This document shows positions 1 to 50,476 of a DNA stretch of 50,600 nucleotides, piece by piece (position 1 is the first letter of the stretch; each line of letters starts with the position of its first letter). Below the pieces are notes generated by a model. That model was not told where the DNA came from and did not search any database. It saw only the letters and a program-made list of their open reading frames with translations. Position numbers and translations under genes: made by a program. Source of the stretch: Dokdonella immobilis (lineage in GTDB: Bacteria > Pseudomonadota > Gammaproteobacteria > Xanthomonadales > Rhodanobacteraceae); contig NZ_FOVF01000035.1 in assembly GCF_900115085.1 (NCBI RefSeq), positions 1-50,600 of the forward strand. The letters run 5' to 3'.

Positions 1-3000
1 GGTCGGTGAGGCCGGGCCATACTGGATCTGGGCGATGCGATCGAGGGCATCGTAGGCGTAGAGGCCGCGCTGATTACGCGCATCGGTGCGCACGGCGAGG
101 TTGCCGGCCGGGTCGTAGCGATGACTGCTCAGGCCGGTATCCGGGCTGGTCAGGGTCTCGAGCTCGTCAAAGCCGGTGTAGAGGTAGCGGGTAACGAGGT
201 TGCGCGGGTCGGTGACCCGGCTCAGGTTGTCCTGGACGTCGTAGCCGTAGTCGATCTGCGCATGGTCGGGATCGGTCTCGGCCAGCACATCGGTATGTCG
301 CAGGCGATCGAGTTCATCGTAGTGCTGCGTGGCGACATGACCGAGCGCATCGGTGATGGTCTTCTCGTTGCCGGTGCCGTCGTAGGTGTAATGGGCCGAT
401 TCGTCCGGGTCGGTGCCGAATTCGGCTTCGACCCGCCCGAGCGCGTCGATGTGCCGGTTGACCACCTGGACGAGTTGATCGTCGGCATCGAAGGTTTCTT
501 CCTTGACACGATTTCCCAGGGGGTCCAGCGTGTAGTGCACGTGCCGGCCGCGGCTGTCGGTGACGTCGGTCAGGCGATCGGCGATGTCATAGTCATAGTC
601 GAGATAGCTGTCGTCAGCCAGGGTCAGGCGATCGACATTTCCGCTCGGGGTATAGTCGAAGCGGGTTGTCTCACCGGGATCATTCGCATCGACCTTGTTG
701 ATTACATGAGTCAGGCGCCCACGCAGGTCATAGCGATATTCGGTGATCTGGCCGTTGGCGTCGATGCGCTTGAGCAGACGCGCATCGTCGTCGTACTCGA
801 TGTATTGCGAGGCATTGCCCTCGGCATCGGTCATCAGGCTCAAGTTGCCCGTTGCCGGATCGTAGTCCCAGCTACTGGCGTCGTTCACGTCGGTTCGTGG
901 ACCATCGAAGCCCGTCAGCTGGCCATTGCCGTCGAAGGCGGTGGTCCAGATGCGTGTTTCGGTGCGCGCGGTCACCGTACGCGATTGCAGGTTGCCTTCG
1001 TCGTCGTAGACAAACACGGAATGGCGCGTGCCGCCTTCAATCGGCTCGAAGGTTTCCAGCGGCAGGAACCAGAATGGGTGCCAGATGGTTGTCGTGACGC
1101 GCTGCAGGGGCGTGCCTGCGGCCTCGGTGAGGGTTTCGATCAGTCCGCGACTGTTGCGCCCGTAGCGCGTGATGCGACCTTCGAAGTCCTTGCGGCTGGC
1201 GATCAGGCCACGCGGATCATAGGTCGTCTCGGCGGCCATGCCACCGCCGCAACTGCCGCATGGCTCCGTGACCTTGTGCAGATACTTGCGCTTGTTGTCC
1301 GTCACGAATTCGTAGACACGCTCGGTGCCTAGCGGATCCGTTTCGGTGGTGCGGTCTTCTTCGTAGCGGAACCTGTAGAGCTCGATTCCGCCGGGCTTTC
1401 CGCTCGACAGCACGCGGCCCCGGTGATCATAGGTCCAGGTCACATAGCGCTCGCCGCGCTCATCGGTGATGCCGGTCAACGCATAGCGCTGGGTAACGTC
1501 CTCGTAGTGGTACTGACGAGTCGTGGTATCGGGATACGTCACCTTGCTCAGGTTGCCGAAGCCATCGTGCTCGAACGAAATCTGCCGGTGCGCCGGATCC
1601 TTGACTCCGGATAGATAACCCGTGGTCGGATCATAGGAAAATTCCAGGGCACGCCCGAAGGTATGAGTCACGCTGGCCGGACGGCCGCGGCCATCGTAGG
1701 CCAGCGTGTGGGCCAGACCGGCGCGGTTGGTGATCGACAGCAGGCGACCGTCGGCGCTGTAGTGCTCGGTCGTATCCTGCGGGGTGTAGTGCAGCCAGCC
1801 GGTAGTGGTTCCGCCGCTGACCAGACGCTCGATGCGACCCGGCACATTGCCGTCTGTTATGTACGCTGTATTGCGCCAGTTGAACTGGGTCCAGCCGCCG
1901 TCCTCGCGCATGATGAGGACGGAGTCCGGGCGTTGATCGACCGGAAACGGACTGCCGTCGACCGACTGCGGCAGGCGCAGATTCTGGAAATAGCTCGCGG
2001 ACCATTTGGCCCCGACGTAGCCGCTGAGATTCGGCACGGCCGACGTGTAGGTTCGTTCGAAGTGCAGGGGAAAGGCGCCATCGCCCTGGTAGTCGTGCTC
2101 AGTCTGCCACTTCACTCCGCTGCCGATCGCTACAGGGTTGCCGCGCGGCGTATCGCTACCGCGATCGTCGTCTCGGCTGCCGTCACCGCCGTCGAAGCCA
2201 ATCGCCGACGCAATGCCTCCAGCACTGAGATCGACCCCGAGCCAGGAAGCGATCTTGCGCAGGCAGGGCGGCACGTAGGAACACGCAATATTGTTGATCG
2301 TATCGATGCCGAGTTGCGCCTTCTCCTCCGGCGTTAGCGCGCCCCATTCATCGATGATCGAGCTCAGCCACATCGACACCTCGTAGATGGCATAGGCGAT
2401 GCCGATTGCGATCAGTGCGGCATCGATGACGGCCAGCACGGGAATGATCGGCGCAAAGATCGCGCCCAGTGCGGCGGCTACCGTCTGGAATGCCGCGAGC
2501 CTGGTGATATAGCGGAGCAGGAATTTCTCGATTGACTCGATGATTCGCGTGTTGCAAAGAATATAGAGCGCGACGGCGACCACGATGCAGCCGACATTGA
2601 TTCCGCCAGACAGTCCACCCTCGATTCGCTGCAGGGAGTTTCCTGTTTGCGGGTCATAGATGACATAGCCCGCTCCGCGCCAGCGGCCATAACTGACTTC
2701 GCGCTCATGAGCGACGACAATCAGGCCGGCAGTGACGCTTTGCCGAATCTCCTCCTCGGCATAGGTGGACAGGTGCAACTCGGCGAGAGCGACATTCAAG
2801 TTTGCACCGCTGATCTGGAAGATGCGCTGGCCGTTGTCGATCGCAAGCTTGAGGATCGTCGAGGCCGATATGCCGAGGCCCTGGCGATAGGTGCCGGTCA
2901 GCAACGGCCATACCGCACTTTCCGCGGTCGAACCGGTCGAGCCGATGTGCAGGGACATGCGCGTGCGATCCTCGGCATTGCGAAGGGTCAGGCCCACGCG

Positions 3001-5163
3001 CGCCGCCTTGACGTCGGTCACCTGGCCAGCAATGAACCCCGAGCGTGGGATGCCAAAGAAATAGGAGACTTCATAGCTTTGGGCGAACGCCCCGATCGAA
3101 GGCAGGCGCAAGGCCACGGCGTCGGCCGAGCGCGCAGCCTGCTCTTCGAGATGATCGGAGATTGCCCAATACAGCAAGCCCCCGTAGTAGAGCGCATCCC
3201 GGGTCGCCAGACTGGCCATATCGGGGAGGCCTGCACCTTCACGCTCGACGCGATCCGGGCGCATGCCGGCCAGGTCCGGGACCAGCGCAATGGTGCTGCC
3301 TGCGGCAAAGCGGTAGGCCTCGGTGGTCGTCCGCCTGCCGCTGGCGTCGCGCACATCGACATGCCAGAACTGCATCGTGCCCATTCGAGTGGCGCCCGAT
3401 TGCCAGAGCACTTCGCCATCGAGCATCAGTCGCGGGACCACGTTGATCTGTCCGAGCGGAAGCGTTTCGGCATGGCTGGTCGCATAGGTCACGATCGCCT
3501 GCGCGTCCGCATCGGTGGCCGGGGCGTAGTCCACCCCGAAATGATGCGCGCCAAGGCGGACCATCGGTACGCTGACCTGCGCGCTTGGTGAGCCGAAGTT
3601 GAGCGCGGATTCGTCTGCGTAGAATCGGATCTCGATCGTCTGTCTGAGCGTTGCCGGGAGTTCGGCATAGCGGGCGACCGTGGACGAGCGCAGTGGGTAG
3701 GGAAGTGCGCCTGCCAGGATCAGGCTGTTGATCGGGCGGATCGTGCGCCGATCATAGAAGCTTTCGCCGGAGATATCCGGAATGGCCGCATTCATCTCGT
3801 CGGCGAGCTGTTGGGCGGTGGCACCCATGGCCCGGTTCATTTCATCGAAATCAAAGCCGGTGATACCCCCGCTTGCATCGATCTGGATGGAGTCGGCGAA
3901 GTTCTGTGCGATCTGCCGCCGTGGCTCGCGCGTGTGTTCGCGCCAGGGATAGGCTGCGACATAGTCGAACTGCTTGTAGGCAACCTCGAATGGCACCCAC
4001 TGGTCGGGGACGCGATTGATCGCTCCGCGCGAGGGGATGAAGTCAACCCAGGCTTCGACCCAGACGTGCTCGAAACGAACGGCGACGATGCGGCCACCGG
4101 AGATGACACTGGCCGCGGGGATGCCGCCCTTCTGCATGATTTCGACGGCCATCTGCGGCGTTGCGACGTTGCCGAGCCAGTTCTGGACCTTGTCGATCGG
4201 CAGTTCGATAACACTCCTGGCGTAACGCGCAGGCACGCCCGATGTGCGCAGCAGCGCCAGGGTAAGACTGGCGATGTCGAACGCATTGCCGCGACGGCTC
4301 AGCAAGGTCTGATCGGCGCCTTGCACCGAACCAAACGTGGGATGGAATTCAACGTTGTCGTAGACCCAGTTGCGGATGGCCACCGGGTTACCATCAAGGG
4401 ACTGGGCGAGTGCCTGAATGGCGGGTGTGAACGATGCATCGAGGGTTTCGGCGAGTTCGCCCGGCCCCGGTGGATCAGTGATGGCGGCGGGCGGCAGGGC
4501 ACCCTCGGCGGTCGGTTCCTGCGGAATGGCCACGTCGTCGAGCGTGGCAAATGAAGTTGGCAACGCCGCCTTGTCGATGGCACGCCAGGCGCGGGCCCGG
4601 GTTTGTCCGGCAAACCAGTCGGCAAGATTGACCAGTGCCCCGCTGATCTCGGAGACGTTGGCGCGGGTATCGCGCAGCGGTTCGATCAGGCTGCGGAAGA
4701 TCGCTGCACGCGAGAGCACTTCAGAAAGAAGTGCCTCGTGTCGTGCGACGATGGATCCGTCGACACCTTGTTCGGCCATCTGCGCAGCCTCGGCGCGCCA
4801 GTCGCTCTCGATCTCGGATTCGAAATCGCCCAGTTCGTCGACATCGGCCAGAATACGTAGCGTCATCGCATTCGGTTCGCTTTCGCCGGTGCCAGCCTGG
4901 ACGCTGGCGACCGTAGGTTTCGGAGACCCGACCGGTTGCAGCCGAGCGAGCTCGGCCGCAACCGACTCCAGCCTATTGGCCAGGCTGCGGACACGCGCAT
5001 CGCGATCGCGCGCATCCTGCGCTGCCGCAATGGCCGCGGCGTAATCGGAGTGCTCGGCGGCCACCGCGCGCGCCATATCGAGGTGCGAAAACCACATGAT
5101 CGAGGCGATGCCCAGTGCCAGCGAAAGGCGACGGACGAGATTCGGTAAGCAGATTGCAGGCAT
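1..5163 (-). CDS. RHS/YD-repeat protein with N-terminal transglutaminase-like domain (partial, 3' end outside window)
   Basis: The frame is open from an ATG at 5163 to the left edge, giving 1721 residues without a stop. The start lies 4 bp after the TGA of the upstream gene and is preceded by AAGGAGG and GAGGA. Residues 1-35 look like a signal peptide. Residues 38-75 are a charged, Ala-rich, probably coiled-coil stretch. Residues about 255-400 resemble a transglutaminase-like core (ALLRTSGVPARYA, then EHVWVEAW with His366). The usual catalytic Cys position is Ala294 (RRGNAFD), so cysteine chemistry is unlikely. Residues about 850-935 are strongly hydrophobic, perhaps two or three membrane segments. 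From about residue 1005 there is a DUF6531-like RHS opening (GVKWQTEHDYQGDGAFPLHF), then YD repeats (YDPRGLI, YDLRGRL, YDPAGNL) to the edge, with a CGSC pair near residue 1305. RHS proteins usually end in a variable toxin or effector domain, which cannot be seen here. Last visible gene of the giant operon. Confidence 0.9.
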   Translation of the reverse strand, partial: MPAICLPNLVRRLSLALGIASIMWFSHLDMARAVAAEHSDYAAAIAAAQDARDRDARVRSLANRLESVAAELARLQPVGSPKPTVASVQAGTGESEPNAMTLRILADVDELGDFESEIESDWRAEAAQMAEQGVDGSIVARHEALLSEVLSRAAIFRSLIEPLRDTRANVSEISGALVNLADWFAGQTRARAWRAIDKAALPTSFATLDDVAIPQEPTAEGALPPAAITDPPGPGELAETLDASFTPAIQALAQSLDGNPVAIRNWVYDNVEFHPTFGSVQGADQTLLSRRGNAFDIASLTLALLRTSGVPARYARSVIELPIDKVQNWLGNVATPQMAVEIMQKGGIPAASVISGGRIVAVRFEHVWVEAWVDFIPSRGAINRVPDQWVPFEVAYKQFDYVAAYPWREHTREPRRQIAQNFADSIQIDASGGITGFDFDEMNRAMGATAQQLADEMNAAIPDISGESFYDRRTIRPINSLILAGALPYPLRSSTVARYAELPATLRQTIEIRFYADESALNFGSPSAQVSVPMVRLGAHHFGVDYAPATDADAQAIVTYATSHAETLPLGQINVVPRLMLDGEVLWQSGATRMGTMQFWHVDVRDASGRRTTTEAYRFAAGSTIALVPDLAGMRPDRVEREGAGLPDMASLATRDALYYGGLLYWAISDHLEEQAARSADAVALRLPSIGAFAQSYEVSYFFGIPRSGFIAGQVTDVKAARVGLTLRNAEDRTRMSLHIGSTGSTAESAVWPLLTGTYRQGLGISASTILKLAIDNGQRIFQISGANLNVALAELHLSTYAEEEIRQSVTAGLIVVAHEREVSYGRWRGAGYVIYDPQTGNSLQRIEGGLSGGINVGCIVVAVALYILCNTRIIESIEKFLLRYITRLAAFQTVAAALGAIFAPIIPVLAVIDAALIAIGIAYAIYEVSMWLSSIIDEWGALTPEEKAQLGIDTINNIACSYVPPCLRKIASWLGVDLSAGGIASAIGFDGGDGSRDDDRGSDTPRGNPVAIGSGVKWQTEHDYQGDGAFPLHFERTYTSAVPNLSGYVGAKWSASYFQNLRLPQSVDGSPFPVDQRPDSVLIMREDGGWTQFNWRNTAYITDGNVPGRIERLVSGGTTTGWLHYTPQDTTEHYSADGRLLSITNRAGLAHTLAYDGRGRPASVTHTFGRALEFSYDPTTGYLSGVKDPAHRQISFEHDGFGNLSKVTYPDTTTRQYHYEDVTQRYALTGITDERGERYVTWTYDHRGRVLSSGKPGGIELYRFRYEEDRTTETDPLGTERVYEFVTDNKRKYLHKVTEPCGSCGGGMAAETTYDPRGLIASRKDFEGRITRYGRNSRGLIETLTEAAGTPLQRVTTTIWHPFWFLPLETFEPIEGGTRHSVFVYDDEGNLQSRTVTARTETRIWTTAFDGNGQLTGFDGPRTDVNDASSWDYDPATGNLSLMTDAEGNASQYIEYDDDARLLKRIDANGQITEYRYDLRGRLTHVINKVDANDPGETTRFDYTPSGNVDRLTLADDSYLDYDYDIADRLTDVTDSRGRHVHYTLDPLGNRVKEETFDADDQLVQVVNRHIDALGRVEAEFGTDPDESAHYTYDGTGNEKTITDALGHVATQHYDELDRLRHTDVLAETDPDHAQIDYGYDVQDNLSRVTDPRNLVTRYLYTGFDELETLTSPDTGLSSHRYDPAGNLAVRTDARNQRGLYAYDALDRIAQIQYGPASPT

Positions 5164-5167
5164 GTCC

Positions 5168-8100
5168 TCACGCCCTCCTTGTCTGGCGTGACCGGAAAGC
5201 TGCCGAACCGAGCAGCAGCAGGAAGATCGAGAGCAGGACCAGGGCGACGCGGCCGGCACCGGGCACCGGTATCGGTGTCACCAGCAGGTCCTCGGCATCC
5301 TCGAGATCAACGAAGACCGGATCCGATCCGAGTGCGGCATAAACCGGATCGGCCGACTCCACGGCGGCGACCCGGATGCCGATGATCCGCATTCCGTCGA
5401 CCGTTCCATTGTTGAAGGTCCGCAGGATCGCGGTGCCGGGACTGCTCCATTGGGGCGGCTCGATGGTCAACGCCAGGGGTTCGAGTTCGACCAGCGCGGA
5501 GTTCGGATCCGCCGGTGGCTCGACGGCCGCCGCCAACATCAGTGTCACCGGCGCGACCGGTCGGGAACCAAGGCTCAGCTGAAGCCCGGTGGAGTCGCCT
5601 TCGATCAGGTTCTGCGGGCCGGAAAGGGATAGGCGGATCGCTGGGACGTCGTCATCCAAATTGTGCGCGGTGACGACTTGCGCAGGCAGCGCGGCGAACT
5701 GGATGTCGTCCGATGCGCTCACCCTGAGGGTCAGCGCAACATCGCGCGTGCCATCAGCGACATCGTCGTCGAGGCCGCGCAGGACAATGGCTTGGGCCGT
5801 CGTCGCATTGGTGGGGGTGAAAATGAGCTCAACCGGGTCCGCGACCACTTCACCGGGGTCGGCCGATGTGATTTCGACGTGCACATCGGCACTCGGCAGG
5901 CGATCAAAGGCTATCTGCAACAGGCCGGTGTCTCCATCCTCGGAAACATCGAGATCGGTTGCCACGATTTGCCAGGCCGGTGCAATGACAACATCGTCGT
6001 CGCGATTGACCGCGTTGAGGTCGGGCGGATCGATGCCCTGATAGCGCGGATCGTCGCTGACCACGGGCCGCAAGCCGATCACACCGATGATGTCGCCGTC
6101 CACTTCGGTGTCATCGACACCGGTCACCGAGAAGCTCAGGACGGAGGCGCCCGAGCCGGCCGGAAACACCAGTGAGTCGGTATCCAGGGACCACTCGCTG
6201 CTGTCGGGGTTGACCAGATCGATCCTGACCGGATCCATAGGAGGCACGCTCAGATGCACGCTGACCGTTGCCTGGGTTCCCGTTTCGCTGGTCTCGATGC
6301 GGGTCTCGGGGTCCACGACAACCTGTACCGTTTCGTTGTCGAGGTTGGTCACGCTGACATCGGGCGGGTTGATGCCGGCGTAGTGGGCGTCGTCGCTCAG
6401 TGCAGCCGCGATGACGATGGCGCCGACGATGTTGCCATCGGCTTCCGCGTCATCGACGCCGGTCGCGACCACGGTCCTCGCACTCCAGTCCTGCGGCGTG
6501 AATACCAGTTCCGACTCCGCAATCGCGAATTCGCCAGGGTCTCCGCTGGCCAGCGGCACGTGGACCTCATCCGTCGGCGCAGTCGTGAGCGCCACGAGGA
6601 AGCTCGCGGTGGCACCGTTCTCGTCGACGATCAGTCCGGTGGTGGGTGCAACAACGATGCGGGCACTGTCGTTGTCGAGGTTGAGCAGGGCCACATCCGG
6701 CGGATCGATGCCGGCAAACGCAGTATCCGCGCTCTGCACGGGACCGAGGGAAAGCAGCGCAGACTGGTCGCCATCGACGAGATCATCGTCAACGGGATTC
6801 ACGGCGACGCTGTAGCCGGATTGCCAGTTGACTGCGTCTAGCCGGATCTCGGTGTCCAGCACCTGCCATTCGCCGGCGTCGACCGGTCCGATCGGCACCA
6901 CCACCTCGGCGCTCGGCATGCGGTTCAGACGAACCACGAAGCTGCCTGCCGTGCCCGATTCGGAGGTCGTGACCTGCTGAGGCTCGACGATGATGCCGGC
7001 CTGCTCATCATCGGTATTGGAAAGTTCAACGTCGGCCGGATCGAGTCCATTGAAGACCGGGTCCTGGCTCACGACCGGCCACAGCTCCAGCACACCGGCC
7101 TGGGTGCCGTCGAAATCGGTGTCATCGACACCCGTCACCTGCACAGACACGCCCGCCTGCCAATTGCCGGCGTCAAGCGTCAATGTCGTGGATGGCAGGG
7201 CCCACTCGCCCGGATCCGGGTTGACCAGATCGATCTGCACGCCGGAGGCCGGTTCGGCGTTCAAACGGACCACGAAACTCGCGCTTGTTCCGGCTTCGGA
7301 GGTGGTTATCGACGTAGGCGACACGAGGACTTCAGCGCTGTCGTCGTCCAGATTGACGATCGTGACATCACTGGCGTCGAGACCTGCATAGGCGCCATCG
7401 GCGGACTGCGCCGGCAACAGGCGAATGATGCCGGCCTGGTCACCATCCACCAGGGCATCATCCACGCCGTCGACGACGATCGCGCGAGGAACGTCCCAGG
7501 TGGCCGGGGTGAACACGATTTCTCCGGTCGGCAGACTCCACTCCGCGGCGTCGCTCGCCACGATCGGAATGCGCACCTCGGCGCTCGGCTGGCTGGCAAG
7601 GGAGACGTTGAACGTGGCGCTCTGCCCGGCCTCCGAGGTCACGAGGCCGGAAACCGGCTCGACCAGGATTGCCGCTGCGGCGGGAGCCACCAGCGTGAAG
7701 GATTCGGAATCGAGGATGCGCCAATCGCCGTTATCTCGGTCCATCTCGACCAAGCAGGCGTGCACGCCGGCCGAGAGCCCGGTCGTCGGCAGCAGTTCAC
7801 TGGCCACGTAATCGGTCCCGGGAACGAGGTCGACCGTGACTTGCTGCTCGAATTCGACCGTGCCGTCATCGAGGGCGACCATGCGCTTGCGCAGATGGGC
7901 ATCGGGCTGCGCTGCGGCGCCGCGGTTGCGCACCGTGAACAGGCAGGTCTGCGGTTCACCGACCAGCAACGACGGCCTGGCAATGCTGACGAAGCCCTCG
8001 ATCGCGGCACTAGCGTCGGGCAGGCGCTGGAACGTGATCGTGTCTGTAGCGTATTCGTAGCCGGTCAATCGGGAGCGCAGGCGTGCCACGGCGGTGTACT

Positions 8101-11100
8101 CGCCGGCGGCTGCGGCGCCGTCGACACCCATCTCGCCAGCGATCGAGGCATTGGCGAAAAGGTCATCGAGCATGATGCTGCGGACCTGACTGAATCCTGC
8201 AGGCCCGGAGATCGTTATCGTGACTTCGGGCAAGCGGATCACTTCTGAAGGAGAAAGATTGCCGGCCACGTAGTCGATCCGGATGGCCTCTCCGGTGGCG
8301 TATTCCGAGCGCGGCGTGCTCAGGCTGACGGTTCCGGCCGGTCCGGTGACGTCACCGCTGATCGCAAACGATGCGGTGGCCGTATCGGCGATCGCTCCCT
8401 GCGAATCATGCAGTCGGCCTTCGAGCACGTAGTTGCCGGCCAACACGCCCTGGGTCGACCATTCCAGACTACGTGACGCGGTTCCACCTGCAGGAATTTC
8501 CGTGATGATCTGGTCGTCGAGCGAGGCAGTCACCACCCCCTGCGAATTACGGATGAGCCATTCAACCGAATAACCCGCGGCGACCACGCCGAGGTTCGAA
8601 ACCGTCGCTGTCAGCGTGGCGATCGCGCCCGGCTCGTAGGCCAGGCTATCGGTGGCCAGTTGCAGGTCACCGCGTCCGTTGGTTGCCAGGAACGGAACAC
8701 TGCGCTGGTTGTTGCCCTCGCGGCATTCACGGGCGCGATTTCGCTGGTCGACCACGGCATACAGATCGCCGCTGCCGGCGACGCTGATCTCGCCGAGATT
8801 GGCGATCTGGAACCGTGCTGGCCGCAAGGTGTCGAGGCGCCGTTCAGTCAACAAGGTGCCACCGGCAGCCGGATCGCCGCGATAGATGCTGATGTAGGGG
8901 GGCTCGTGCGCATCGACCGGGCCGGCGTTGCCGACACGCACCTGGACGGCCGGGTTGTGGCCCGTGCCCTGGTCGATCAGGCGCAGGTCGCCGACCGTGA
9001 AGTCGGGCATGCCGAGCGGATCGGGCAGCGGACTCTTCTGGACACGATAGGTATTGTGGGTCAGCCAGGAAGGCGTCTCGATCAGCGGCAGCGTCGAGTC
9101 CTCGTTGATCTCGTTGACATGGAAGGCTGCCGAGTTCCACGCCGATCCGGCGTCCGCCCAAGCGCCATTCCTAGCCTTGAACACGCGGATACCCGGAGTG
9201 GCCAGGGCCAGATCCTTGTCGAAACCGGTGACAATGATCTCCGCCTGCTTGTCCCCATCAAGGTCGGCCACCACCGGAACTTCATAGACCGTCAACGAGG
9301 AGTTGGCGGTGATGAAGCGCTGGACCAGGGTGCGCGCATCGAGAATGCGCAGATTGTGTTCGTCCGTATGCACCACCTCGAGCAGTCCGTCGTTCTCGAA
9401 GTCGAAGACTGTCGCGCTGGTCACGCCCGATGGATCGTCGATGTCGAAGGTGCGTTTGACCGTGCCGTCGGACTCGAACACGGTCAGCTTGTGCAGGCTC
9501 GAGATGATGATTTCAGGCAGTCCGTCGTCGTCGATGTCGGCTACCGTGGGCGCGCCCATGGCCGTCGAATCGGGTGCATGGACCGGACCCCAGATCGTCT
9601 CGCCGGTGTGTTCGAGCAGCCAGAGCTCGTCGTTGATCGAGAGGACGATTTCGGCGAAGTCGTCGGAGTCGAAATTGCCGATCGCCACGTAACCCGAGTA
9701 ATTCATCGGAACGTCGTTGCCGTCCGCAATCGGGATCGGCTTGATGTCTTCACGATGCCACAACGTGCGCCCTTCGAAGTCGTATGCCGTACGCCCGGCG
9801 ATGACTTCGACACGTCCATCGAGATCGATATCGGCGGCCACCGAAGCCACGGCCCCGGCCACGCGCAGGGGCGAACCGATTGGCTTGCCGCCCGTGCCAC
9901 CGGCGTCGAATTCGCCTTCCCAGAGCTGCTCGCCGGTCAAGCCGCGGAACGCGGCCCTACCCAGGACCACTTCGGCTTCGTTGTCGCCTTCGAGATTGAC
10001 GATGATCGGCTGGTCGAAGACGAAGGGTGCCGGCGGAAATATCGGCGCCGGTTCGCGCGGACCATTCATGGCCGTACGCCACTTCAGGGTGCCGTCGTTC
10101 TCGAACGCGATGAGCTCCTGCCGATATCCGCGCACGACGATGATCTCGGCAACGCCGTCGTTGTCGATGTCACCGGTCGCCGGTGAGGCGAATTGGGAAA
10201 GCCGGAAACCGGTTCGCGACCAGAGTTCCGCCCCGGTGCGGCCGTCGAGCGCGACGAGGGCGGTCTGGCTCGGCGCAATGCTGTTGCGCAGGCCGGCCAC
10301 GAAGACGAGGTCGGGTGTGTCGTACTCATTGATGGCGCCGTCGCCATTGTCGTCGGTCAGCTGGACGACGGAGGGCGTGGCGTTGAGCGAGTTGATCTGC
10401 GGATTGGAAGCGAGTCCGTCCCAGCGCCAGGACTCCTCGACCGTGTCGTTGCCGACAAAGGAAGGCGTAACCCGGCAACCGAGAAGGCTGGTGCCGACAT
10501 TGTTGTCTTCGTCCTGTTCGGGGATCTCGTTGTCCGCGTCTATCCAGAACGCCACCGGCGCGTCGCGGAAGGTCAGTTGCGCGGCCACGGCAATATCGAC
10601 CTCGACGCTACCGCCGACGGGCAGGTCCTGATCAACCCGGGTCCGGCCGATTTCCGGCTCGAGTCCGGAATCGAAGCTGCCATTGCCGTTCGCATCGACG
10701 AAGGCGATGACATAGAAATCCTGGGTTGTCGAGGACGTGCCGCGATTGGCGATCGAAAGGGTGAACGCCCGATCAAGATCAAAATGATCCGGATCGGTTT
10801 CCGACAGGGTGCTCTCGACCAGCACGAGGTCGGGGAAGTAGAAGGCCAGCGCTGTGGGTTTCAGCCCGATCTCGCCGAGGTCGCGCACTTCCAGCGGCTG
10901 CAGTGGCACGGCCAGGGTTGCCGGGTCGAAGGCGTCGGCGCTGATGGCCAGCCGGGCCACCGGTCCGCTGACCCCGCTCAGCGAGAACGCGCCGGCTGAA
11001 TCGGTGCGGGCAACATGCTGACCGCCCGGATCGCTGGCGACGATCAGGGCATTTTTGATCGGCTGGCGATTGGCCTGATTGACGATAGTGCCGAAGACCC

Positions 11101-12763
11101 GTGCCTGGTTTGCGCCCTCCGGAGTTTGCCCTTCGGGATACATGCGCGGCGAGAACACCAGCACTTCATTGTTGCCCAATGGGGCCGAGACACTGACCGG
11201 ATCGTAACCCGACAGGCTGGCAACCAGGGTCACAAGCGGGCTGGCTTCGGAGAGAAGACCGTAGCTACCCGATGCGTCCGTGGTCGTCGCAACCGGAAGC
11301 GCGCCCTCCACGATGGCCACGCTCACGCCAGCCAGTGCATCGCCGGTGACGCCATCGACGATGGTTCCTCGAACGGTGGCTCCGGTCGCGTTTGCATCGG
11401 CCTGCAGCGCAACCGAGAATTCGATCACCGCCGACGGGCCGATATCGACCTCTGCGAATCGGCTCGAGTAGCCGGCCGCCGAAACGATGATGCGAACGTG
11501 CCCGGCCGGAACCTGCAGGATCTGATAGCTGCCATCCCCGCCACTGCTCACCTGGATAGGCGGCTGCTCGATGAGAATGCTGGCACCTGGAATCGGTGCG
11601 CCATCCGCAGCCCGGGTGATGCGTCCACGGACGATGGCCAGGTTGGCGCCCGCATCACCCTGGTACATGCGCAAGTCACCGAGGTCGAGGATGCGGCCAT
11701 CGGCCAGGCTGAGCTCGAATTCGATCGAATGCATGCCTGGATAGCTCAGCGTCGCCAGATAGCTGCCGGCCAGCAGCGAGGTCGACTGAAGCTGACCCGA
11801 GTCATTGCTGGTCAGGGTCGCGACGGCCGTGCCGCTCAAGGCCAGGGTCGCGCCGCTGATCGGCAAGCCCGTATCGGCCGAAAGGACCCGACCCGTCAAT
11901 CCGGCTTGCATCGGCTCGACGACAGGCTGCTCGAACAACCAGAGTGCACGAAGCGCCAGCGCAGTGACGTAGGCGTCGCCTTCGAAACTCCCGTCGGTCG
12001 ACTGCGCCATCGAAAGAGTGGTTGCGATCGGGGCCAGCGTTGCGCGATCGACGCCGAGGTCGACAAGGGCCTCGAGCACGACCGCAGTTTGGAAGGCTTC
12101 GCCAAATGTATTGTCGGGCTGTCGCGCCGACTGCAGGAATGCGAGGGAGCGTGCGATCGGCTGGGTCAATGCAAAGCGATTTCGAAATGCATAGAGCACC
12201 TGCGCTGCACGCGCCGTCGGAATGACATGGCTGGTGTTGGCAGGTGCGGCGAGCCAGCCTCCATCCGTCTGTTGACTGGCAATCAGGTAGCCGAGGGCGC
12301 GCGCCGCCTCGGTCTGCCCACCGCGGCCGGCACGGTCCAACGCCAGCAACACCCACGCCGTCGTCAGCGGCTCGCTTTGCAAGCCCGGCAAGGCTGGAAA
12401 GCCGCCGTCTTCACCTTGCTCGGCTAGCAGCACATCGAACTGATCCGCGGCCGACTGGCCCAGATCGATCCGGTTATGGGCCAGTCTCGCCAGCGACAAC
12501 AACGTTTCATCGCGCTGCTCCCGGGCAAGGCCAACGGTTGCGGGAAAATCGGCGGAACGCGAGAGTCTGACGATGGTCGTGTACGCCTCCGCATTGGTGT
12601 CCGCGGCGCCGGCCAGATCTTCGATGCGATGGACTCCCGCTGGCGATTCCCTGCCGCGCAACCACTCCATCCCGCTCGTGACATCGGCATGGGCGAAGAG
12701 TGCCGGCGCGAGGCCGACCAGGAGCAGGCAGACACGCCCCATCCAATGGCTACGGTGCTTCAT
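5168..12763 (-). CDS. Giant secreted mosaic protein, 2531 aa: toroid, CarboxypepD-reg, CARDB, FG-GAP, Calx-beta-like repeats, C-terminal sorting tail
   Basis: The ATG at 12763 overlaps the previous stop by four bases (ATGA). A signal peptide ends near ALFAHA (residue 26). Residues 30-280 carry alpha/alpha-toroid repeats like those of prenyltransferase/squalene-cyclase folds (DGGFPALPG, QQTDGGWLAAP, QSTDGSFEGDAYVTALAL). Residues 285-640 hold four carboxypeptidase-regulatory-like beta sandwiches (GRVLSADTGLPISGA and similar). A CARDB domain follows at 643-760. An FG-GAP/VCBS propeller spans about 765-1215, with Ca-binding loops such as DIDNDGVAEI, DIDDDGLPEI and DLDGDKQAEI. A second CARDB domain (1253-1370) and Ig-like sheets lead to seven Calx-beta-like repeats of about 110 residues (1700-2490; signature GVDDxxxDGD...DPPDVxxxNxDDD). 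The end is IPVPGAGR, then a hydrophobic run and RSRQTRRA, a tripartite tail like IPTL/PEP-CTERM sorting signals. Probably exported and surface-anchored; function unknown. Confidence 0.93.
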   Translation of the reverse strand: MKHRSHWMGRVCLLLVGLAPALFAHADVTSGMEWLRGRESPAGVHRIEDLAGAADTNAEAYTTIVRLSRSADFPATVGLAREQRDETLLSLARLAHNRIDLGQSAADQFDVLLAEQGEDGGFPALPGLQSEPLTTAWVLLALDRAGRGGQTEAARALGYLIASQQTDGGWLAAPANTSHVIPTARAAQVLYAFRNRFALTQPIARSLAFLQSARQPDNTFGEAFQTAVVLEALVDLGVDRATLAPIATTLSMAQSTDGSFEGDAYVTALALRALWLFEQPVVEPMQAGLTGRVLSADTGLPISGATLALSGTAVATLTSNDSGQLQSTSLLAGSYLATLSYPGMHSIEFELSLADGRILDLGDLRMYQGDAGANLAIVRGRITRAADGAPIPGASILIEQPPIQVSSGGDGSYQILQVPAGHVRIIVSAAGYSSRFAEVDIGPSAVIEFSVALQADANATGATVRGTIVDGVTGDALAGVSVAIVEGALPVATTTDASGSYGLLSEASPLVTLVASLSGYDPVSVSAPLGNNEVLVFSPRMYPEGQTPEGANQARVFGTIVNQANRQPIKNALIVASDPGGQHVARTDSAGAFSLSGVSGPVARLAISADAFDPATLAVPLQPLEVRDLGEIGLKPTALAFYFPDLVLVESTLSETDPDHFDLDRAFTLSIANRGTSSTTQDFYVIAFVDANGNGSFDSGLEPEIGRTRVDQDLPVGGSVEVDIAVAAQLTFRDAPVAFWIDADNEIPEQDEDNNVGTSLLGCRVTPSFVGNDTVEESWRWDGLASNPQINSLNATPSVVQLTDDNGDGAINEYDTPDLVFVAGLRNSIAPSQTALVALDGRTGAELWSRTGFRLSQFASPATGDIDNDGVAEIIVVRGYRQELIAFENDGTLKWRTAMNGPREPAPIFPPAPFVFDQPIIVNLEGDNEAEVVLGRAAFRGLTGEQLWEGEFDAGGTGGKPIGSPLRVAGAVASVAADIDLDGRVEVIAGRTAYDFEGRTLWHREDIKPIPIADGNDVPMNYSGYVAIGNFDSDDFAEIVLSINDELWLLEHTGETIWGPVHAPDSTAMGAPTVADIDDDGLPEIIISSLHKLTVFESDGTVKRTFDIDDPSGVTSATVFDFENDGLLEVVHTDEHNLRILDARTLVQRFITANSSLTVYEVPVVADLDGDKQAEIIVTGFDKDLALATPGIRVFKARNGAWADAGSAWNSAAFHVNEINEDSTLPLIETPSWLTHNTYRVQKSPLPDPLGMPDFTVGDLRLIDQGTGHNPAVQVRVGNAGPVDAHEPPYISIYRGDPAAGGTLLTERRLDTLRPARFQIANLGEISVAGSGDLYAVVDQRNRARECREGNNQRSVPFLATNGRGDLQLATDSLAYEPGAIATLTATVSNLGVVAAGYSVEWLIRNSQGVVTASLDDQIITEIPAGGTASRSLEWSTQGVLAGNYVLEGRLHDSQGAIADTATASFAISGDVTGPAGTVSLSTPRSEYATGEAIRIDYVAGNLSPSEVIRLPEVTITISGPAGFSQVRSIMLDDLFANASIAGEMGVDGAAAAGEYTAVARLRSRLTGYEYATDTITFQRLPDASAAIEGFVSIARPSLLVGEPQTCLFTVRNRGAAAQPDAHLRKRMVALDDGTVEFEQQVTVDLVPGTDYVASELLPTTGLSAGVHACLVEMDRDNGDWRILDSESFTLVAPAAAAILVEPVSGLVTSEAGQSATFNVSLASQPSAEVRIPIVASDAAEWSLPTGEIVFTPATWDVPRAIVVDGVDDALVDGDQAGIIRLLPAQSADGAYAGLDASDVTIVNLDDDSAEVLVSPTSITTSEAGTSASFVVRLNAEPASGVQIDLVNPDPGEWALPSTTLTLDAGNWQAGVSVQVTGVDDTDFDGTQAGVLELWPVVSQDPVFNGLDPADVELSNTDDEQAGIIVEPQQVTTSESGTAGSFVVRLNRMPSAEVVVPIGPVDAGEWQVLDTEIRLDAVNWQSGYSVAVNPVDDDLVDGDQSALLSLGPVQSADTAFAGIDPPDVALLNLDNDSARIVVAPTTGLIVDENGATASFLVALTTAPTDEVHVPLASGDPGEFAIAESELVFTPQDWSARTVVATGVDDAEADGNIVGAIVIAAALSDDAHYAGINPPDVSVTNLDNETVQVVVDPETRIETSETGTQATVSVHLSVPPMDPVRIDLVNPDSSEWSLDTDSLVFPAGSGASVLSFSVTGVDDTEVDGDIIGVIGLRPVVSDDPRYQGIDPPDLNAVNRDDDVVIAPAWQIVATDLDVSEDGDTGLLQIAFDRLPSADVHVEITSADPGEVVADPVELIFTPTNATTAQAIVLRGLDDDVADGTRDVALTLRVSASDDIQFAALPAQVVTAHNLDDDVPAIRLSLSGPQNLIEGDSTGLQLSLGSRPVAPVTLMLAAAVEPPADPNSALVELEPLALTIEPPQWSSPGTAILRTFNNGTVDGMRIIGIRVAAVESADPVYAALGSDPVFVDLEDAEDLLVTPIPVPGAGRVALVLLSIFLLLLGSAAFRSRQTRRA

Positions 12764-20712: not shown

Positions 20713-20726
20713 CGGACCAGGCGCGC

Positions 20727-22127
20727 CTAGAGGATCACCCTTCTGCCACTGGCCGTGACTAGCGTTGTGGTGGCGTTGCCACCAATACTGGCAGCGAGCT
20801 CCACCGAGATGACCTTCTCGCCACCAGTGAAGCGAGATAGTGCCTGTTGCTGGGCACCTGCGACCGAGTAGCTCAGTGTTGCCAGCAAGACACTGGGACC
20901 GTCCGGAAGCGACACATTGGCTGTAGCGGTGGCGGCGTCAATGGTTCCCTGCAGGGCACTCGAGACACTCATGGTCGGCGCGCCGTGAGGCGGCGTGAGC
21001 ACCACCGAGATCGTCGTTCCGAGCGGTACGCCGGTCGTCGCCAGATCGACGGCAACCGGATTCGGCGCATTGGCCGGCAGGATGATGTCCGAATGGCCGG
21101 TAGGCTCTGCAGGTGCTGGCTGACCTGCTACAGCTGAAATACGAATCGTTGGCAGACCGTCGACAAAAAGACTGCCAGGCAGTCCCTGGGTATAGGGCGG
21201 GTTGGTACTTGCCGTGCGCTGAAACGTCTCTGCCTCGAAGCGAATTCGCCCTGCTCCTCCGTCCGTAGTATTCGTATAGCTTGAAAACGTTCCGCCAATG
21301 CCTCCCACTGCGTTGACGGTGCCGTTGCCGGTGAGCGTCGTAGCGACAAGTCGGATGGCGCCACCGCTACCTCCACCACCGGTTGTGCCACCTGCGTTGA
21401 CGGCGTTGCCGACGTCCCCGCCATTCCCGCCGTTGGCCAAAATACTGCCGGTTAACTGCAACGTTCCGCTGACGGCGATGAGAAGTGCTCCGCCACCGCC
21501 GCCGCCTCCACTTCCGCCCAGGCTAAGAAATCCTGTTCCGCCGGCGCCACCGGATCCGCCCACCATGGGCAAGAGATCCGGGTTGGCATAGCTGTCGGAT
21601 TGCGTTCCACCGCAACCGGCTGCTTCACCTCGTGTGCCAAACGAACCACCGCCACCAAAACAATTGTAGGCAGTGCCTGGCGCCGGGCGTCCGCCGCCCG
21701 GGCCGATTCCCGCCTGTCCATTGCGCGCATTGGCCGGTATCGAATCAATGGTTCCACCGAGTCCACCGGCATAACCGCCTGGTCCGCCTTCGCCAGGCAA
21801 GCCATCATCGGCGACATTGCCATTGCCAGCGCCATTCGCATCCGGCGCGGCCTGCCCGCTGACATTGATGCTGCCAGCAATCGTCGCATCGCCCGCCACG
21901 AGCAATGTAACCGGCGTATTGAGCGAATTGCGCAGGAATCGCACAGTGACCCCGGAAGGAATGTCGATCGACGAATAATTCAGGATTCCACTTGCGGGAA
22001 CCTGTATTTCACTATCCACGTTGGGACTCAGAATACCGTCGCTACCGGTACTCCCACTGTCGAAAGCGAACGCCGGAGTAGCAAAAAAGAAAGACAACAA
22101 AACGACATGCGTCAGGCGAATGCCCAT
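20727..22127 (-). CDS. Glycine-rich secreted protein, 466 aa
   Basis: The ATG at 22127 was chosen over an in-frame ATG at 22184 because GGAGGGGG stands just upstream and a clean signal peptide follows (MGIRLTHVVLLSFFF, cleavage after PAFA). Residues 22-85 are a beta-rich region (SGVTVRFLRNSLNTPVTLL, GDATIAGSINVSG). Residues 95-300 are dominated by Gly, with runs such as GGSGGAGGTG and GGSGGGGGGG and a few Cys (YNCFGGGG, AAGCGG). Residues 320-466 form a less biased beta-sandwich-like C-terminus ending in ASGRRVIL. Similar glycine-rich beta proteins occur in surface or matrix contexts, but no enzymatic motif is visible. First gene of the giant operon, about 110 nt after the predicted promoter, with the stop 14 bp before the tandem-95 gene. 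A structural or matrix role is inference. Confidence 0.85.
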   Translation of the reverse strand: MGIRLTHVVLLSFFFATPAFAFDSGSTGSDGILSPNVDSEIQVPASGILNYSSIDIPSGVTVRFLRNSLNTPVTLLVAGDATIAGSINVSGQAAPDANGAGNGNVADDGLPGEGGPGGYAGGLGGTIDSIPANARNGQAGIGPGGGRPAPGTAYNCFGGGGSFGTRGEAAGCGGTQSDSYANPDLLPMVGGSGGAGGTGFLSLGGSGGGGGGGALLIAVSGTLQLTGSILANGGNGGDVGNAVNAGGTTGGGGSGGAIRLVATTLTGNGTVNAVGGIGGTFSSYTNTTDGGAGRIRFEAETFQRTASTNPPYTQGLPGSLFVDGLPTIRISAVAGQPAPAEPTGHSDIILPANAPNPVAVDLATTGVPLGTTISVVLTPPHGAPTMSVSSALQGTIDAATATANVSLPDGPSVLLATLSYSVAGAQQQALSRFTGGEKVISVELAASIGGNATTTLVTASGRRVIL

Positions 22128-22593
22128 TTCCCCCTCCCTTATGGGAAAACCAGACGAAAGCGGCCCGCATTCGCCATTCGGCAAATGTCATGTCTGCTTT
22201 CGAATCCTAATCCCTTGAAAGCGGCCCCAAACTCCGCCCTTGGGATACTAGAGAGGTAAAGTGGAAGCTGTCAACACTTGAGCCGGAGAATCCTGCACTG
22301 CGCAGCAAAACAGGCAGAATATAACAAGCGATTTGCAGCGCAGGCCTGCCGCTTCCTTTTTGACGCCCTTATCACATTGCCGAGATTCTAATGCGAGCAT
22401 GTGGTGCACCAAGGACCACGAGGAGGAACCACCCCTCGGCGAGCGAAGTCATTCGTGGGCACAAGCAGGCGGAGGATACTTACTTTCCATGTTCGCAAAC
22501 TGAGGCGCTTGCGCAGGACACATGGCTCGAGGAAGCTGCGGGATCCAGGACACATTATCCAATTCACGGCGGAAAACGCGCTCATCGCCGCAC
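22128..22593. other. Intergenic region upstream of the giant operon
   Basis: This stretch has no credible gene. It holds the predicted promoter of the giant operon (22245-22274) and a leader of about 110 nt. The leader repeats the short string GGCCGCTTTC twice (near 22160 and 22220). I recognise no riboswitch consensus in it. The stretch 22275-22593 shows neither a gene nor a convincing terminator for the gene pair ending at 22594. Confidence 0.6.
22245..22274 (-). promoter_or_regulatory. Predicted sigma70-type promoter of the giant operon
   Basis: On the minus strand TTGACA (22274-22269) is followed by an 18-bp spacer and TAGTAT (22250-22245). The -35 is a perfect consensus and the -10 matches at four of six positions. 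Transcription would start near 22238 and leave a leader of about 110 nt before the ATG at 22127. This is the best-looking promoter in the window. Confidence 0.65.
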
Positions 22594-50350: not shown

Positions 50351-50359
50351 GATAAAGCG

Positions 50360-50476
50360 CTCAGCGATGACCTACTCTTGCATGGCTTGAGCCACACTAC
50401 CATCGGCGCAGCTGCGTTTCACTTCCGAGTTCGGGATGGGATCGGGTGGTTCCACAGCGCTATGTTCGCTGAGCAA
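50360..50476 (-). rRNA. rrf: 5S ribosomal RNA
   Basis: The minus strand reads GCTCAGCGAACATAGCGC at the 5' side, then the conserved CCGAACTCGGAAGTGAAACG and GCCGATGGTAGTGTGG, ending TCATCGCTGAGC. The termini pair (GCTCAGCGA with TCGCTGAGC) to form helix I. The length of about 117 nt is normal. It is the last gene of an rRNA operon read leftwards. The 23S gene would lie beyond the right edge; 50477-50600 is the 23S-5S spacer, with no mature 23S sequence recognised. Confidence 0.95.

Follow-up and report, generated by a model that had tools for sequence, protein, structure and literature searches.

Polymorphic toxins with an inactive transglutaminase domain were described by Zhang et al. (2012; PMC3482391), who in the text searched proposed that the domain anchors the protein at the surface by binding peptides. 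This role could only be guessed at the time. In bacterial teneurin-like proteins, which according to the sections consulted occur mostly in social bacteria, a TTR domain, a propeller, a YD shell and a polymorphic toxic C-terminus are combined in one chain (PMC13018210). The Xanthomonas RHS bacteriocin Bcn-A is, in the part of the report searched, inactive in a T2SS mutant (PMC7259588), and excerpts on CDI ionophore toxins describe polymorphic hydrophobic C-terminal domains together with polymorphic immunity proteins (PMC11630599). Four further papers (PMC13274458, PMC12096838, PMC10318531, PMC13055991) concern other proteins, as far as their searched text goes.

The locus considered here lies in a window of 50,600 nt from Dokdonella immobilis, the whole stretch of DNA analysed. 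We consider it likely that its gene 4 encodes a contact toxin exported by Sec and type II secretion (T2SS), with the protein of gene 3 as an adhesin-like partner; we infer the interaction, the delivery and the toxicity.

The Locus and Its Four Genes

Four minus-strand genes (Table 1) are spaced by 14, -4 and +4 bp, as the earlier note had it and as the ORF coordinates confirm. Base 1 is the contig end, so gene 4 is truncated there. The genes had been placed behind one strong promoter; the single promoter-like site found is weak, and is within chance, since shuffled sequences yield 0.4 +/- 0.7 such sites. All four genes recur, with their order kept, in one congener (G131), at 86-94% amino-acid identity and dN/dS of 0.07-0.17 (for gene 4, over the 1720 residues in the window). 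By these two measures the four ORFs are real coding genes. The recurrent unit, judged from the sequences of the relatives discussed below, is nevertheless not the four genes. It is the mosaic (gene 3) together with the dead-transglutaminase carrier (gene 4), and the interpretation of the four-gene coupling as a fixed-ratio assembly, with a stalk for the RHS protein, has no direct support.

Gene 1 would encode 485 aa from TTG 22184 or 466 aa from ATG 22127. The ATG is preceded by gggaggggg and is the same in the congener, whose protein is 91% identical (dN/dS 0.075); no Pfam or NCBIfam family was found at the thresholds used. Gene 2 starts with a hydrophobic, signal-peptide-like stretch, has an N-terminal part of IPT/Ig-like look and ends in the tail LFKNGFESQ (dN/dS against the congener, 0.165). 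It is a tandem-95 repeat protein (NF012211, 843.5 bits against a cut-off of 90 in the NCBIfam scan), and the 20 tandem-95/Big_9 repeats counted earlier proved right, PF17963 and NF012211 each marking 20 stretches. A tandem-95 gene was seen in three genomes and a Gly-rich gene adjoining the locus in two, the region upstream of the mosaic often lying outside the loci examined. Genes 1 and 2, in the same transcription unit, probably encode surface or matrix accessories specific to the lineage. Both kinds of protein, tandem-95 and Gly-rich, are typical of the cell surface.

Table 1. Coordinates of the genes and of the features within them, in window positions.
Feature	Position	Strand	Evidence
Promoter-like site TTGACA-18-TAGTAT	22245..22274	-	weak, one site vs shuffles
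Gene 1, Gly-rich secreted protein	20727..22127 (ATG 22127); 20727-22184 if TTG	-	ORF
Gene 2, tandem-95 protein, 2650 aa	12760..20712	-	ORF, Pfam and NCBIfam scans
Gene 3, giant mosaic protein, recurrent partner, 2531 aa	5168..12763	-	ORF, Pfam
Alpha/alpha toroid domain (squalene-cyclase/C3d-like fold family), gene 3	11918..12691	-	alignment, profile matches
Four TTR/carboxypeptidase-regulatory-like domains, gene 3	10844..11911	-	PF13620, 4 stretches
FG-GAP beta-propeller region, gene 3	8984..10423	-	PF13517
Calx-beta-like repeats, gene 3	5324..7693	-	named by inspection
Gene 4, putative polymorphic-toxin carrier, start ATG 5163	1..5163, beyond base 1	-	ORF, Pfam
Dead transglutaminase-like domain, gene 4	3910..4494	-	Pfam, alignments, model
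Junction where relatives switch to unrelated C-termini; here GYVIYDPQTGNSLQRIEGGLSGG	2602..2670	-	relatives' alignments
Hydrophobic segments at and behind the junction, gene 4	2371..2625	-	inspection, relatives
DUF6531 and RHS/YD repeats, gene 4	1..2142	-	PF20148, PF05593

The Carrier and Its Dead Transglutaminase Domain

By inspection, gene 4 starts with a hydrophobic, signal-peptide-like stretch. The earlier description, an RHS protein with a transglutaminase-like domain, is borne out by Pfam, which finds Transglut_core, DUF6531 and, following in the chain, RHS repeats; the domain, however, is without its catalytic Cys. RGNAFD stands in place of G-x-C, and in all 20 aligned sequences, taken from 23 places found and including the window, the Cys is replaced by Ala (8), Asp (10) or Gly (2). 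The loss is also seen on alignment to the enzyme 3isr. The His and Asp of the site are kept in the close group, and the domain was modelled at a pLDDT of 81 (m1f7a05e93f2f). An active cross-linker was therefore rejected as the function of the domain: with the nucleophile missing, cross-linking by gene 4 is unlikely. A model of the middle region of the carrier matched no solved structure at E<=0.001, the best being transglutaminase-like 3isr again (0.003), and in what is visible of the protein the Pfam scan found no propeller family.

Variable C-Termini and an Optional Shell

Relatives of the carrier (79 named loci among the matches listed, from 308 relatives reported) are found in Gamma- and Betaproteobacteria, deltaproteobacteria, Nitrospirae, Myxococcota and Acidobacteriota; Alcanivorax and Alloalcanivorax are represented by named isolates. 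They share a conserved core up to a Gly-rich junction, behind which unrelated tips follow. Forty-six of the 59 complete relatives are short and without an RHS match, the tip coming directly after the core; the matches were made by single-sequence phmmer, which missed one RHS carrier recognised by Pfam (L156). Since so many relatives are without the repeats, the RHS part of the carrier is, by this comparison, optional, and the shell would be an optional packaging step rather than a defining part. When a toxin needs its shell thus becomes a testable question.

The tips were compared in 35 of the 79 loci, those with a closed ORF, a recognisable junction pattern and a C-terminus of at least 60 aa; the 13 pairs for the junction itself were picked by choice. 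Among 95 pairs whose cores are at least 55% identical, only 2 have C-termini above the range of shuffled sequences (mean 23.6, sd 4.2, maximum 35.4%). In one pair, L097 and L099, the core is 97% and the C-terminus 29% identical. Tips behind the junction are hydrophobic in 33 of 35 cases, and some are enzymatic. The C-terminus set (54 of the 79 loci, 19 of them represented merely by the last 220 aa) matched NLPC_P60, CHAP, NucA/NucB, HNH, GIY-YIG and a deaminase in Pfam at E<=0.01, and more weakly SLT and CHAT. Such toxin-type families occur in a minority of relatives, most C-termini being without a Pfam match.

Small ORFs follow the tips, single SUKH- and LRR-type members among them. In the downstream-ORF set (39 of 56 found, plus 2 from contig C60 of the same genome), clear co-variation of ORF and tip is seen in L127/L131 (47%). 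L099/L121, the second pair whose tips are related, does not show it (29%). A double-CXXCG immunity gene suspected by eye in the congener was dropped, as it matched no Pfam or NCBIfam family.

It had been suggested that an RHS C-terminal toxin and an immunity gene be sought beyond base 1, and contig C60 offers candidates for both. At its beginning lie an RHS core, a tip and, sharing 4 bp with the tip, an ORF of 239 aa; further on it carries a second displaced tip with its ORF. Very likely the RHS repeats of gene 4 continue there (L175:1-876), given the shared RHS core and a congener contig with sequence of both; the congener contig lacks a counterpart to the roughly 8.5 kb of C60 that separate these matches. 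The tips and neighbouring ORFs of this genome gave no Pfam family at E<=0.05.

A hydrophobic segment that ends 33 of 35 relatives could be a mere anchor, and this leads to an alternative in which the four proteins form an adhesive surface or biofilm matrix, the RHS shell and the hydrophobic C-termini being structural (membrane anchors) and not toxins. The surface character typical of tandem-95 and Gly-rich proteins in general would suit it, as would the RHS carrier in G036, whose C-terminus is a putative adhesin (Stv) domain. Anchors, however, need no hypervariability of the degree seen in L097/L099, and the C-termini that match wall hydrolases, peptidases, nucleases and a deaminase, like the displaced RHS tips, which lie in tandem and are followed by small ORFs, argue against it. 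We consider a pure matrix unlikely, and return below to one further point in its favour.

The Giant Mosaic

Gene 3 is indeed a mosaic of 2531 residues, as first noted, and also has a CARDB domain. The toroid profile matches squalene-hopene cyclase; its matches to structures of complement C3d/C4 and CD109 are weaker. No Calx-beta match was found in the Pfam scan at E<=0.01 for the repeats so named, and no RHS family in the protein. The repeats are followed by an IPVPGAGR-hydrophobic-basic tail. This had been taken for a sorting-type tail, a part of the description that did not stand: it resembles IPTL-CTERM, but TIGR04174 was not reported at E<=1 in the NCBIfam scan, and gene 3 is not among the two places in its own genome that pass the TIGR04174 cut-off. 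Gene 3 was accordingly rejected as an IPTL-CTERM protein.

A 1200-aa model of gene 3 (mc01fdd2d1515; pLDDT 78.7, pTM 0.42) has as its best Foldseek match the Vibrio cholerae matrix protein Bap1 (E=1.1e-16), which is the further point for a matrix. Teneurins are also among the fold matches (E ~4e-10), with TM-scores of only 0.1. They raise the alternative of a split teneurin-like toxin, in which the TTR domains and propeller of gene 3 would cap the RHS shell of gene 4 in trans. Mosaics elsewhere lend it something: Teneurin NHL is above cut-off in that of Tahibacter (G091; 43.8 against 27.1 bits), teneurin TTR in that of G065 (31.2 against 27), and in G079 RHS repeats share a single ORF with an FG-GAP propeller (597 aa aligned to gene 3 at 29% identity), with no transglutaminase match. 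In gene 3 itself, the teneurin TTR score stays below cut-off (23.9 against 27), and by Pfam neither gene 3 nor the visible part of gene 4 unites, as a teneurin-like protein does, a plug and an NHL propeller with a YD shell. Capping can hardly be the general role of gene 3, because 46 of 59 complete carriers have no shell to be capped, and we regard a split teneurin as highly improbable.

A Recurrent Neighbourhood

The neighbourhood was assessed in the 60 of 79 loci with at least 2.5 kb upstream, the 19 with less being set aside. A mosaic-like ORF is present within the examined flanks in 47 of them, a count in which CARDB and the middle domains of gene 3, both less specific, also qualify; with the toroid, TTR and propeller domains only, it is 44. 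The ORF is upstream on the same strand in 38 loci (with a gap of at most 150 nt in 32), only downstream in 9, and neither in 13. These 13 include L109 and L157, although they have a mosaic, and L156 and L165, where a giant upstream ORF gave no match; all four were kept as misses. Across 369 genomes of the class, 27 have the carrier, 25 the toroid and 17 both (Fisher 9e-17), the two genes being on one contig in 14 of the 17. Apparent one-ORF fusions of mosaic and carrier in G044 (6321 aa) and G036 (4979 aa) were rejected, their first halves being in the wrong frame by codon-position GC; read in a different frame, a long ORF stops shortly before or near the start of the carrier. Fusions would have counted as proof of contact, which adjacency by itself does not give.

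Could the two genes be functionally separate, and adjacent merely through clustering of surface genes? Neither gene 1 nor gene 2 recurs as a neighbour, the searches found no partner in 13 of 60 loci and no toroid in 10 of 27 carrier genomes, and in deltaproteobacterial and Nitrospirae loci the mosaic is mostly behind the carrier with small ORFs between. The neighbourhood nevertheless recurs from the Gamma- and Betaproteobacteria through deltaproteobacteria and Nitrospirae to Myxococcota and Acidobacteriota, and of the 17 genomes in which the toroid match is strong, 15 have the carrier as well, which makes mere clustering scarcely probable. The earlier suggestion that the mosaic is a partner of the RHS protein is plausible in this light, its homologues neighbouring the RHS-type carrier in several phyla. 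Because of this recurrence, the carrier and its giant neighbour probably work together against competing bacteria.

How the Putative Toxin May Be Exported and Presented

With T2SS judged by GspD, two loci of the genome are above cut-off, and GspD genes also lie near distant carriers in G080 and G051. A signal for T2SS is not recognisable in a protein sequence. The remark that no type VI gene is visible agrees with the absence of a TssC match in the whole genome, and a type VI Rhs effector was rejected on this ground, TssC alone having been searched for.

In the contact-toxin reading, which we prefer, gene 4 would be exported by Sec as a chain of N-terminal helical region, dead transglutaminase-like domain, conserved middle, junction and hydrophobic segment. 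The RHS shell, an exchangeable C-terminal toxin and, behind it, an immunity gene would follow, C60 supplying the continuation. Type II secretion would take the protein across the outer membrane. Gene 3, with its toroid, TTR domains, CARDB and beta-propeller, would be a giant adhesin-like surface protein that holds or presents the carrier, and the dead domain's peptide-binding groove may be the point of contact. The toxin might then be delivered to neighbouring bacteria on contact, the downstream gene protecting the producer. As a surface-protein gene recurs as neighbour, the dead domain gains a concrete candidate ligand.

More tentatively, and as a possibility rather than an expectation, this may be an undescribed, widespread two-component contact-toxin system, in which a toroid-TTR-propeller protein docks a carrier with interchangeable cargo. 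The tips are suggestive of two formats within it: membrane and wall toxins naked behind the Gly-rich junction, cytoplasmic nucleases and the deaminase wrapped in RHS. Nucleic-acid enzymes account for all 3 of the tips recognised on RHS carriers (an HNH, a deaminase and a GIY-YIG) and for 1 of 5 or 1 of 6 naked ones, counted in named loci only and with families partly assigned to loci by inspection; p is 0.048 with 6 naked tips, and a hand calculation that treats the CHAT and Raptor matches as a single protein gives about 0.07. The adhesin-like Stv end of the G036 RHS carrier and a naked NucA/NucB in L130 run counter to such sorting. If the two-component reading is true, type VI, CDI and Tc machinery would all be unneeded.

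Comparison With Known Systems

By its domain content, the RHS protein belongs to a published kind, the polymorphic toxins with inactive transglutaminase. A signal-peptide-like start, the dead domain and RHS repeats are common to gene 4 and the toxins of Zhang et al. (2012), and the tip is variable in them as in the carrier family here. In the text searched, RHS repeats always follow in those toxins, whereas most complete relatives here switch directly to the tip; the same text has no giant partner gene and no occurrence of "squalene", "FG-GAP" or "carboxypeptidase regulatory". To the extent of that text, the giant mosaic as recurrent partner and the RHS-less carriers with unrelated tips go beyond the published account. 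As far as the open-licence PMC literature was searched, neither the partner gene nor the RHS-less form is described in it, and no experiment on any member was found.

The other systems differ in architecture, as described in the sections consulted. What teneurin-like proteins hold in one chain (PMC13018210) is divided here between two adjacent genes, TTR and propeller in one and YD shell in the other, and the carrier, unlike those proteins, has a dead transglutaminase domain. CDI ionophore toxins (PMC11630599) are similar in their hydrophobic, polymorphic ends and immunity proteins, but are carried on CdiA, the carrier here being the dead-transglutaminase protein. Bcn-A (PMC7259588) has 1,398 aa, and the part searched mentions neither a transglutaminase domain nor a giant partner gene. 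It is nonetheless, like the protein proposed here, a secreted RHS-family toxin with an immunity gene, dependent on T2SS, in a related bacterium.

The four-gene block and its counterparts

The four genes at the left end of the window lie end to end on the minus strand, and the ORF positions bear out the spacings of 14, -4 and +4 bp from which the earlier note had read an operon; the grouping is real. The strong promoter proposed ahead of it is a weak point, the promoter-like site being not beyond chance. In Pfam and NCBIfam scans, gene 1 (Gly-rich) matched no family, whereas gene 2 gave 20 tandem-95 repeats, the number first counted from the sequence. Gene 3, the mosaic, is made up of a toroid, four TTR-like domains, CARDB and an FG-GAP propeller; the repeats behind these resemble Calx-beta on inspection. 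Gene 4, the carrier, has transglutaminase-like, DUF6531 and RHS domains and runs off the contig at base 1. The window is an entire contig (50,600 bp) of a 78-contig draft genome, and it may break at an rRNA operon, since a 5S rRNA gene sits at its right end (see table).

The order recurs elsewhere, in full or in part. A congener (G131) has all four genes in identical order (86-94% amino-acid identity, dN/dS 0.07-0.17), whereas a genome of a different genus (G065) has three, in the order tandem-95, mosaic, carrier; the first two overlap by 4 bp and the carrier ends without RHS repeats.

The mosaic as a probable recurrent partner

Among 147 genomes of the family, gene 3 was matched in 13, the gene-4 N-terminus in 15 and both in 12; gene 1 was matched in three, one match being weak and elsewhere in its genome. 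One scan reported 308 relatives, of which 79 named loci were kept; 60 of these had enough upstream sequence for a test. In 38 of the 60 a mosaic-like ORF precedes the carrier on its own strand, in nine it lies solely downstream and in 13 it is in neither place; counting by more specific domains gives 44 of 60 loci with a mosaic instead of 47. In deltaproteobacterial and Nitrospirae loci the mosaic mostly follows the carrier, with small ORFs in between. Across 369 genomes from the class, the carrier occurs in 27, the toroid in 25 and both in 17 (Fisher 9e-17); where the toroid match is strong, the carrier is also present in 15 of 17 (1e-17). Carrier and toroid share a contig, 0.9 to 8 kb apart, in 14 of the 17 genomes with both. 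Ten of the 27 carrier genomes lack a toroid match, which counts against a partnership. The natural unit is, as judged from gene neighborhoods, mosaic plus carrier. Many genomes lend support to the earlier idea of a mosaic serving the RHS protein, but with a recurrent unit of two genes, not four.

Several loci (L101, L107, L110, L113, L118, L154, L169) hold two or three neighboring carrier genes, as if new carriers had been placed beside old ones. Mosaics in L098, L111, L121, L130, L131, L040 and L042 share a helix-like C-terminal motif, near LRxxLDWxIW, which may be a docking or anchoring part; gene 3 has an IPTL-like tail in its place. An F-x-x-GFE tail, which could be a sorting signal of this bacterial order, ends the product of gene 2, both the tandem-95 protein and the mosaic of G065, and one ORF of G050, a single-contig genome.

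Coordinates of features in the window and in related loci
Feature	Position	Remark
F-x-x-GFE tail	gene 2, window 12760-20712 (tail LFKNGFESQ); ends of ORFs in L033, L077	C-terminal
5S rRNA	window 50359-50473	minus strand
GspD genes near distant carriers	L087:2736-4928; L088:11711-13873	G080, G051; one genus
Region where the congener's RHS gene leaves RHS sequence	L031:9461-12400	G131
Stretch matching the G131 contig	C60:13393-14000	

A dead transglutaminase domain

The nucleophilic Cys is replaced by Ala (8), Asp (10) or Gly (2) in all 20 aligned sequences (the window and 19 of the 22 other places found in the family sample), and alignment to the enzyme 3isr likewise puts another residue at the catalytic Cys position. 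The His and Asp are (nearly) invariant in a closer group of 38. Judged by the replaced Cys, the domain of gene 4 is dead. An AlphaFold model of the 854-aa carrier core (pLDDT 81, pTM 0.79) has 3isr as its top structure match (E 0.003), so that the domain, as modeled, has a transglutaminase fold.

Carriers without RHS repeats and their variable tips

Forty-six of 59 complete relatives are 900-1250 aa long with no RHS match in ORF or locus, as judged by single-sequence searches that missed one RHS carrier; six have RHS repeats. The RHS shell is evidently optional in carriers. A pattern search located a Gly-rich junction (near DPxTGAGAYxIxGGxNGG) in 37 of 79 ORFs; a short variable part comes after it. 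Mean column identity is 34% in the core (n=38) and 7% in the C-termini (n=54), with nearly no consensus; even among 95 pairs with core identity of at least 55%, the C-termini exceed the shuffled range in only two. A hydrophobic segment is present in 33 of 35 of these C-termini; for the remaining ORFs at the same loci the figure is 30 of 260 C-termini. In gene 4, hydrophobic segments at the junction precede the RHS shell. A minority of tips match Pfam families (E<=0.01): NLPC_P60, CHAP, NucA/NucB, HNH, GIY-YIG and a Pput_2613-like deaminase; SLT and CHAT matches are weak. The downstream ORFs are as diverse as the tips (mean column identity 8%), with SUKH and LRR types as single members. G050 has two highly similar dead-transglutaminase RHS genes (L076, L077) giving the same match at near-equal scores, one followed by an orphan RHS piece with a NucA/NucB end.

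Probable sequence left of base 1

The RHS C-terminal tip and following ORF sought left of position 1 have a counterpart on another contig of the genome, C60. It starts within an RHS core (TIGR03696) and runs on into a tip of ~110 aa, after which comes a 239-aa ORF with a 4-bp overlap; further on come a second, diverged core end with its tip and a 246-aa ORF. The first tip has a D...DSK pattern and looks like a PD-(D/E)xK nuclease; the Pfam scan gave no supporting model. Because the C60 cores and a further stretch (see table) both match the G131 contig at and behind its RHS gene (86-87% identity), C60 very likely continues gene 4, despite ~8.5 kb without counterpart there. In G131, RHS sequence stops after DHLDTPRVLV, and past it lie sequence of no relation, an ORF that on inspection resembles a sulfotransferase, and RHS fragments that have been displaced. 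C-terminus displacement is described as a known mode of rhs evolution in excerpts of PMC2935791.

Export and a proposed mechanism

In the genome of the window the GspD cut-off is exceeded at two loci and TssC has no match; T2SS secretin GspD genes also occur in the vicinity of distant carriers (see table). According to an excerpt of PMC7259588, T2SS is required by Bcn-A, an RHS bacteriocin of Xanthomonas. The proteins would cross the inner membrane via Sec, as hydrophobic N-termini suggest on inspection, and the outer membrane via T2SS. Bap1, a matrix protein of Vibrio, is the best match to the model of the mosaic (pTM 0.42, with an uncertain arrangement of domains); the mosaic may be an adhesin or holdfast presenting the carrier, with the dead transglutaminase domain as natural candidate for docking. 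On contact the tip would enter the neighbor cell, and kin would be protected by the ORF downstream of the tip.

We consider it probable that gene 4 is a Sec/T2SS-exported contact toxin with the mosaic as adhesin-like partner; interaction, delivery and toxicity are inferred. The fuller scheme is tentative, and we put it at somewhat below even: a two-component contact toxin in which the mosaic docks the carrier and the cargo is naked or RHS-wrapped by kind, nucleic-acid enzymes on RHS carriers and membrane or wall toxins on RHS-less ones. Both estimates were lowered slightly because of the stricter neighbor count and an Stv tip that goes against this cargo rule.

Gene 4 belongs with polymorphic toxins of an already described kind, in which the transglutaminase domain is dead. 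Excerpts of Zhang et al. (2012; PMC3482391) place such domains between signal peptide and RHS repeats and propose anchoring via peptide binding as their role. What goes beyond that account, as excerpted, is the apparent recurrent giant partner and the common form without RHS repeats.
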